This document shows, one piece after another, positions 14,325-16,500 of a DNA stretch of 34,416 nucleotides. The stretch covers positions 1 to 34,416 of the forward strand of contig PIYB01000007.1 in the NCBI GenBank assembly GCA_003601835.1. The letters run 5' to 3'. The stretch comes from Candidatus Bathyarchaeota archaeon. GTDB taxonomy: Archaea; Thermoproteota; Bathyarchaeia; Bathyarchaeales; DTEX01. Both the position numbers and the translations under genes were made by a program. The notes under the pieces are model-generated. The model was not told the origin of the DNA. It worked only from the letters and a program-made list of their open reading frames with translations, and ran no database searches. Each line of letters opens with the position of its first letter. The first letter of the stretch is position 1.

Positions 14325-14771
14325 TCAGAAAGGTTTCTGCATCCAAAGCCTAATTGTTTCAAACCACAATATTAGACACGCTAAACCCCCGAACATTATC
14401 GCTACAACATTGTGGATGCTTCCGCTCTGACCGTAAAGAACCAAATAAACCACAAGCATGGTTGAGAACCAAACTGAATAGAAAAGGTAACGGGGAACCA
14501 TGTAACGACCTAACCTCGTGAAGAACCTTAAAACCCCAACCTTCACCTCACGCGTAAGATAATACTCTCCCCGCATAGTTTTCTCAACAAGTCCCAACCC
14601 GTGAAGCTTATCCAAATGATGCGCTGCCACACTGGGACTGGAAAACCCCAGCTTCCGCTGAATCTCGCGGACGCCAACCGAGGAGCTTGGAGACTTAAGC
14701 ATAAACCAGTAAACAAGAAGAGTCTTCCCTTTCAACTGGGACTCAATCTCAGCCAGCGAAAGGTTACTCAT
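14325..14771 (-). CDS. Winged-helix (ArsR-like) transcriptional regulator with C-terminal transmembrane segments
   Basis: REIQRKLGFSSPSVAAHHLDKLHGLGLVEKTMRGEYYLT (wHTH) followed by two hydrophobic stretches (YSVWFSTMLVVYLVLYG; VVAIMFGGLACLILWF). Confidence 0.8.
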   Translation of the reverse strand: MSNLSLAEIESQLKGKTLLVYWFMLKSPSSSVGVREIQRKLGFSSPSVAAHHLDKLHGLGLVEKTMRGEYYLTREVKVGVLRFFTRLGRYMVPRYLFYSVWFSTMLVVYLVLYGQSGSIHNVVAIMFGGLACLILWFETIRLWMQKPF

Positions 14772-14863: not shown

Positions 14864-14966
14864 GGCCGCCGTAACGTAGAGGGGACATCTTAAACGGCAT
14901 CCGCGGAATCTGGTAGCGTACAGGCCTGTGGAGCCTGGAGGCCGGGTTCAAATCCCGGCGGCGGCC
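14864..14966 (+). tRNA. tRNA-His (GTG) with an expanded D-loop (candidate ~30-nt intron)
   Basis: G-1 (14864); acceptor GCCGCCG/CGGCGGC; TA at 8-9; D-stem ACGT/GCGT; anticodon arm CAGGC-CTGTGGA-GCCTG (anticodon GTG); T-arm CCGGG-TTCAAAT-CCCGG; C73 opposite G-1. D-loop 14878-14915 is 38 nt. Confidence 0.75.
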
Positions 14967-15007: not shown

Positions 15008-15630
15008 CTACGTATTTGGTGGGTATCTTGTGCATCTGTAGATGGAGTGAGCGGAAGGTTTGACGCCGGTTAGGTTCCATCCATCGTAGTAGGGTGTTAG
15101 GTATTCCCATACGGTTTTGCCTTCAGCCATTACTTCGAAGAATCTTCATCTGGTGCCGCCTTCGCATATGAGGGTGTTTCCGTTGGGCATTCTGTCTGCG
15201 CCGCCTAACCCGCCTCCGCACCACCAGTTCTTTTGAGAGTATTCCCAAACTATTTCTTCGGTTTGTGGATCGAGCTCGATCACCTTTGTGTGTCTTCTTG
15301 TGTCGCCGTTATCGTATATCAAGAAATGTCCGGCGCCCGGTATTTTCTCCCCAGTCATGGGGTGACGGCCAGGGATTAGGGTCGGCATGTGCTGTTTGTC
15401 TAGTACGCCGGGACCCCAAGCCCACACGATTTCCCCGTCTTTTTGTCTATGACTCCGATAACGTCCAAGTTGCGGTGGCTGAAAACGATGTTTCCCGCTT
15501 TGAACCGCGAATCTTTTCTTTTCGTCATCGTCCAGAACGTTGGATTCTACATATAAGCATTGACGAAGGAAATGTTGCGGCGGATTACTGTGTAACCGTT
15601 GGCTGTTTCGGGCGAGCTGAACGCATAATC
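15008..15630 (-). pseudogene. Degraded arylsulfotransferase (ASST)-like / beta-propeller gene remnant
   Basis: Pieces in two frames: NISFVNAYM*NPTFWTMTKRKDSRFKAGNIVFSHRNLDVIGVIDKKTG then (frameshift) GEIVWAWGPGVLDKQHMPTLIPG...KVIELDPQTEEIVWEY...RMPNGNTLICEGGTR*RFFEVMAEGKTVWEYLTPYYDG...SIYRCTRYPPNT. Contains an internal TAG (15547-15549), a frameshift (~15433-15440) and an internal TGA (15146-15148); N-terminus missing. Confidence 0.7.
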
Positions 15631-15633
15631 TGG

Positions 15634-16500
15634 TTATTGAAGTTGTTTTAGGTATTCTTGGATCTTCGGTTTGACGGCAAAGTAGTCCCTTAACGCTTGG
15701 TACGCAGCTAGGCTTTTCCGGTTCCATTCTCTGATTTTTTCAGCCCGAAGCATGATGTTTTTCGGCGTGTACTTTGAGGAGACAAATTCGAACAGGTCCA
15801 CTTTGTATCCGAAGCTTTCCAACGCAAGTTTTCTCAGGGTTTCGGTTAGAGCCACACCTATGTATTCTTTGGTCACCTTCGCTTCCACGAGGGGCTTGAT
15901 CTGCGGAACATTTCTGGACACGCGGCTTATCTGTTTAACAACTTGCCTTTGACAGCAAGGCGCAGCTAGGATGAATCTGCTGGACAAGCGGATTCCTTTG
16001 GCAATGGCTTCGTCGGTTGCAGTGTCGCATGCATGAAGGGCACAAACAATGTTCACAGGTTGTTCCGGTTCAAAGCTAATTATGTTGCTTTCGTAAAACC
16101 GCATGTTGAAAAAGCCCAGCTTTTTGCTGATCTCCGTTGATCTTTTGACAAGCTCTGGGTTTGAGTCGATGCCTATGTAATCTATTTGTCTCCGCTTTTT
16201 TCCGAGAACATAGTTGACGAAAAAAGGCAAGTATGAACGTCCGCATCCACAATCCAGCAGAACCACTTCTCGCCTACGGGAAATGTTTTCCACACATTTC
16301 ACTATGTGACTTGAAAAATGAATGACTTCGTACAGTTTCTTCTCGCGTTCACCATACATTTTTCCGCCGGGATTCATTATGCCGACAGCCTTGAGAAACT
16401 CAACCAGCTCTCCCAGATCCCATCCTATTTCAGAATGTACTTTTCGAAGACAGTTTATGAGTTCTCTGTTTTCCGCTGACGGTTCCATGCGACTCGACAC
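15634..16500 (-). CDS. SAM-dependent methyltransferase (Methyltransf_32-like)
   Basis: VVLLDCGCGRSYLPFFVNYVL, IDYIGIDSNPELVKRS, IVCALHACDTATDEAIAKGI, ILAAPCCQRQV. Confidence 0.8.
   Translation of the reverse strand: MSSRMEPSAENRELINCLRKVHSEIGWDLGELVEFLKAVGIMNPGGKMYGEREKKLYEVIHFSSHIVKCVENISRRREVVLLDCGCGRSYLPFFVNYVLGKKRRQIDYIGIDSNPELVKRSTEISKKLGFFNMRFYESNIISFEPEQPVNIVCALHACDTATDEAIAKGIRLSSRFILAAPCCQRQVVKQISRVSRNVPQIKPLVEAKVTKEYIGVALTETLRKLALESFGYKVDLFEFVSSKYTPKNIMLRAEKIREWNRKSLAAYQALRDYFAVKPKIQEYLKQLQ

Follow-up and report, generated by a model that had tools for sequence, protein, structure and literature searches.

The only tRNA-His that we found in the genome of a Candidatus Bathyarchaeota archaeon (G000) very probably carries a non-canonical intron of 29 nt in its D-loop, between positions 15 and 16, that would be spliced out by the endonuclease EndA by way of a relaxed splice motif. 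The gene lies in a stretch of 34,416 nucleotides that was analysed as a whole and that we call the window; its parts are listed in Table 1. Orthologous genes in the same family, some with an insert at the same point and some with none, support this reading, and a comparison of the precursors gives the motif.

Table 1. Features of the tRNA-His locus (positions in the window; a slash within a bulge marks the predicted cut)
Feature	Position	Strand	Basis or remark
Divergent winged-helix (HTH) gene, neighbour upstream of tRNA-His	14325..14771	-	Pfam PF01726, 25.5 bits
tRNA-His(GUG) gene, G-1 to C73	14864..14966	+	TCCA follows C73; CCA not encoded directly there
Exon 1, G-1 to G15	14864..14879	+	Same as intronless orthologues L067, L070, L073, L075
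Central helix, exon side: C11 G12 U13, part of D-stem 5' strand	14875..14877	+	Invariant in 15 distinct genes
5' splice bulge, AG/A	14878..14880	+	Intronless orthologues and motif alignment
Putative D-loop intron, 29 nt, between positions 15/16, AGGGGACATCTTAAACGGCATCCGCGGAA	14880..14908	+	Absent in orthologues, variable in relatives
Inner helix, 5' strand GGG; partner strand 14900-14902, with G-U as the third pair	14881..14883	+	Helix covaries
Inner helix, 3' strand TCC	14900..14902	+	Helix covaries in relatives
Central helix, intron side: GCG, imitates D-stem 3' strand	14903..14905	+	Paired in 15/15 distinct genes
3' splice bulge, AA/T	14907..14909	+	Intronless orthologues and motif alignment
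Exon 2, T16 to C73	14909..14966	+	Same as intronless orthologues
Anticodon GTG; no intron in anticodon arm	14928..14930	+	

The tRNA-His gene and its intronless orthologues

A sequence-only reading of the window had already proposed a tRNA-His(GTG) with an insertion of about 30 nt in the D-loop, and its placement of the gene, of G-1 and C73, of the anticodon and of an anticodon arm free of introns is borne out. The acceptor stem has 7 bp (14865-14871 with 14959-14965, flanked by G-1 at 14864 and C73 at 14966), the T arm is normal, and the D-loop is about 29 nt larger than usual. ARAGORN missed the gene in the window even with introns allowed, and the Rfam tRNA model matched it over model positions 10-63 only (31.1 bits), a partial match in which GCGG of the intron is read as the 5' strand of the D-stem. 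With 14880-14908 deleted, ARAGORN calls tRNA-His(gtg) and the results are those of a standard tRNA; the identical intronless genes of relatives reach 60.6 bits over the full Rfam model. Position 48 is G, as had also been pointed out, within a variable loop of four nucleotides (GAGG), and since nearly all family members have the same G we do not regard it as a sign of decay.

We searched for tRNA-His by pattern across 100 related genomes and then read the surrounding DNA, which recovered the gene in most of them, usually once per genome. Within the same family, tRNA-His was recovered in 17 genomes, and the 15/16 site carries an insert in 13 of them and none in four. The intronless genes come from these four (G004, G007, G011 and G013, all of one genus) and from G031, a member of another family of the order, and they read GGCCGCCGTAACGTAG-TCT-GG(T/C)AGCGTACAGG. 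Outside the 13, an insert at that point was read in G022, in G037 and in the public records JAGTQN010000081 and JAUPKU010000176, and two further families of the order have members that carry it; in more distant families of the order the D-stem is different and the site carries no insert. Among the insert-bearing relatives the length at the shared site ranges from 18 to 32 nt and the sequence varies too, and the exons are nearly invariant. Most of the named records that have a tRNA of this kind bear the label Candidatus Bathyarchaeota, and Hecatellales are among them; the host is accordingly best placed in the Bathyarchaeia.

The intronless orthologues also fix the borders. When 14864-14879 is joined to 14909-14966, the product is identical letter for letter to L067, L070, L073 and L075 over 73/73 bases from G1, with G-1 likewise in common, so that the borders fall at 14879/14880 and 14908/14909. 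The sequence of the identical intronless relatives at this point, GTAG-TCTGG, places T14909 in the exon; the insertion itself was thus correctly recognised from the sequence, and only its size and end need correcting, to 29 nt (14880-14908). Neither a group I or II intron (the insert has 29 nt, and no Rfam intron family is present in the window) nor a split or permuted tRNA (the exons follow each other in the usual order on the same strand, with 29 nt between them) fits this arrangement, and both were ruled out.

The sequence-only reading had raised the matter of another intact tRNA-His gene. None was found in G000 (1.25 Mb, 85% complete, 26 tRNA matches) with either the tRNA model or a pattern of anticodon plus T arm. 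An assembly of this completeness could lack a second copy, as would be needed if the window gene were a decayed pseudogene and another tRNA-His served the cell, but its exons are 100% identical to those of intact orthologues and in almost every member of the family tRNA-His is single-copy and has the same gene upstream, and we consider this the least probable explanation of those weighed here. Hardly more probable is that the insert is simply kept and that the mature tRNA-His functions with a large D-loop. That explanation has on its side that no splicing is needed for intact anticodon, acceptor and T arms, but there are relatives that lack the insert exactly at the site, and the inserts vary in length and sequence and yet conserve a splice-like motif. 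The interpretation as a non-canonical D-loop intron, favoured from the start, is supported by orthologues identical to the predicted spliced product, by the variability of the insert, by the covarying motif and by the lack of a second tRNA-His in the assembly.

Homologues of the divergent winged-helix gene, 73-83% identical, stand directly upstream of tRNA-His in intron-bearing and intronless relatives alike, and this neighbour marks the orthologous locus. A tree of the gene requires three changes of intron state, and one gain with two losses would fit it, a history that is only indicative because several branches of the tree are weak. Just downstream of tRNA-His, the reading frame at 15146-15727 (minus strand) gave no match in a Pfam search; it stands between genes with clear Pfam matches.

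A predicted relaxed splice motif and a competing pairing

For the motif we compared 15 distinct genes, aligning the bases beside the assumed splice sites without gaps and leaving out the variable middle of the intron. The structure tested pairs the D-stem ACGU with the four bases before the 3' bulge, and includes the bulge AG/R and five intron-intron pairs. In this structure 80% of cells are paired, and 27-39% when the partners are slid by 1-3 columns, a control that leans toward the chosen pairs, since these very sequences had served for choosing the five inner-helix pairs by eye. For covariation the structure scores 0.312; shuffles give 0.131 (sd 0.028), and 0 of 500 scored as high. A stronger point than the slide control is that the inner helix changes on both sides: the first of its five pairs never varies, and each of the remaining four changes on both strands, with variants that include GG/CC, GA/UC, GAAG/CUUC and GGAAC/GUUCC. 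In the central helix the C11-G and G12-C pairs are invariant and U13-G becomes U13-A in one gene (ACG), with pairing kept; the fourth pair, at A10, forms in 2 of the 15 genes, which leaves three secure central pairs, not four. The 5' site falls within the 3-nt bulge AG/R and the 3' site within AN/Y, both in agreement with the junction in the intronless genes.

Because the outer helix of a full bulge-helix-bulge is absent from the compared precursors, the predicted motif is a relaxed one, of the HBh' or BHL type. The window's own copy is weak, its inner helix consisting of just G-C, G-C and G-U, and that no clean bulge-helix-bulge could be found there by hand agrees with our results; the relaxed form becomes clear only when relatives are compared. 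Folding with ViennaRNA did not recover it: for the window precursor, as for its 5' segment taken alone, the splice-motif conformation is given almost no probability, so the motif in the window rests on comparison and not on energy. In several relatives, by contrast, the isolated 5' segment folds into the motif.

What ViennaRNA favours instead is pairing of UCCGCGG in the intron with CUGUGGA in the anticodon loop, with a probability of 0.94-1.0 for the four pairs checked. It is possible, though unlikely, that an intron with the same borders has its 3' site recognised in this way, through pairing of CCGCGG with CUGUGGA. What speaks for such recognition is that the pairing is predicted for the window with a probability near 1 and that the fourth base of the intron strand, a G, fits C32 better than A10. 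The same pairing is strongly favoured in 5 of the 15 other precursors folded, but not in the rest, it competes with the covarying inner helix, and the anticodon loop is invariant, so that no covariation can support its pairing with the intron. The match may be a by-product, because the matching intron bases are largely those needed for pairing with the D-stem and for the inner helix. A functional role for the 7-base complementarity, whether masking the anticodon or presenting the 3' splice site up to the removal of the intron, seems to us a little less likely still; if real, it would be a case of a D-loop intron recognised through the anticodon arm.

Splicing endonuclease and other interrupted tRNA genes

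In most of the 31 genomes of the same order that were searched there is a pair of EndA genes, of which one has the catalytic histidine and the other lacks it. The former also has the Tyr and Lys of the catalytic site and matches EndA of Aeropyrum pernix (3p1z, E = 7.5e-43), its K-P-K aligning to K44-P45-R46 of the crenarchaeal loop in that enzyme; the latter we take as a putative structural subunit. An EndA loop of the K-P-K type has been linked to relaxed splice substrates (PMC12397907), and finding K-P-K in the catalytic EndA agrees with the association already known between such a loop and scattered tRNA introns. A search of G000 (85% complete) found the structural type and no catalytic EndA, which is probably a gap in the assembly, because nearly complete relatives mostly have both genes. 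In six of the seven genomes read (L154, which is contig C20 of G000, and L156, L158, L161, L162 and L163), the histidyl-tRNA synthetase gene directly follows the structural EndA gene and has the same orientation; the adjacency was not seen in the short stretch L160.

Returning to the D-loop intron and its proposed splicing by EndA, we infer the following course. In the precursor, C11-U13 of the 5' strand of the D-stem would pair with GCG near the 3' end of the intron, displacing their normal partner, and a short intron-intron helix would adjoin this pairing. The flanking 3-nt bulges would present AG/A for the 5' cut and AA/U for the 3' cut, and an (alpha-beta)2-type EndA that has a loop of the crenarchaeal type would recognise this conformation and cut at both sites. 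An RNA ligase would then join the exons, leaving the D-stem able to form.

Other tRNA genes of G000 also seem interrupted, about eight in all, including Thr-CGU, Met, Glu-UUC and several Arg (L010, L013, L017, L020, L022, L023, L024 and L026). L022 and L023 appear to have an insert near 29/30, and in L026 (Arg-UCU) the 5' part seems disrupted. A second insert is also seen in the tRNA-His of relatives, on the 5' side of the anticodon stem at about 29/30 (L065, L071, L074, L076, L077, L078, L080, L081, L104 and L119), often beside the D-loop intron, which makes two introns; the tRNA-His of Candidatus Hecatella orcuttiae (L119) has the insert at about 29/30 only. In L034, from a genome of another family of the order (G028), the D-arm insert of tRNA-His (about 1450-1530) is elsewhere, apparently near 20/21. 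Two tRNA-His genes (L079 and L080) occur in the G020 bin; one has a single insert, the other has two, and the bin may be a mixed one.

Place among known archaeal tRNA introns

Non-canonical archaeal tRNA introns with the relaxed motifs HBh', hBH and BHL are treated in a review (PMC4090602), and the HBh' and BHL kinds are described in PMC12397907 as well. The window gene resembles these introns in its short insert away from 37/38, its predicted relaxed motif and the other tRNA genes in the genome that seem interrupted, and the two-subunit EndA of the reviewed systems has its likeness here in the relatives. The positions named there as examples (20/21, 22/23, 25/26, 29/30 and others) do not include 15/16, and we do not claim it as a new position because the list is open-ended. 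The tRNA-Glu of Methanopyrus kandleri has a D-loop intron with predicted removal of the EndA type and unspliced precursors in RNA-seq (PMC3695527). Like the window gene, it combines a D-loop intron with predicted removal by the splicing endonuclease; it differs in tRNA and lineage, and there the D-loop intron accompanies a canonical one. The tRNA-Thr of Caldiarchaeum subterraneum, with introns at 24/25 and 45/46 (PMC3293823), shares with our case a D-arm intron, the same broad archaeal group and presence or absence among close relatives. Its 24/25 intron sits in an insertion linked to a transposable element, whereas none was seen for the 29-nt insert of the window. A literature search for Bathyarchaeia with tRNA introns found no paper among those available to it.

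Introns of the D-loop and D-arm are thus already known in archaea, and the window gene is a clear but ordinary example of scattered tRNA introns. The case also shows that genes of this kind can escape a general tRNA finder, so that a tRNA-His that seems to be missing from one of these genomes should not be taken as truly absent. What the locus adds is a putative D-loop tRNA intron placed at 15/16 in Bathyarchaeia; within a single family some orthologues have an intron there and others do not, and such a mix is good material for the study of how tRNA introns originate and are lost.
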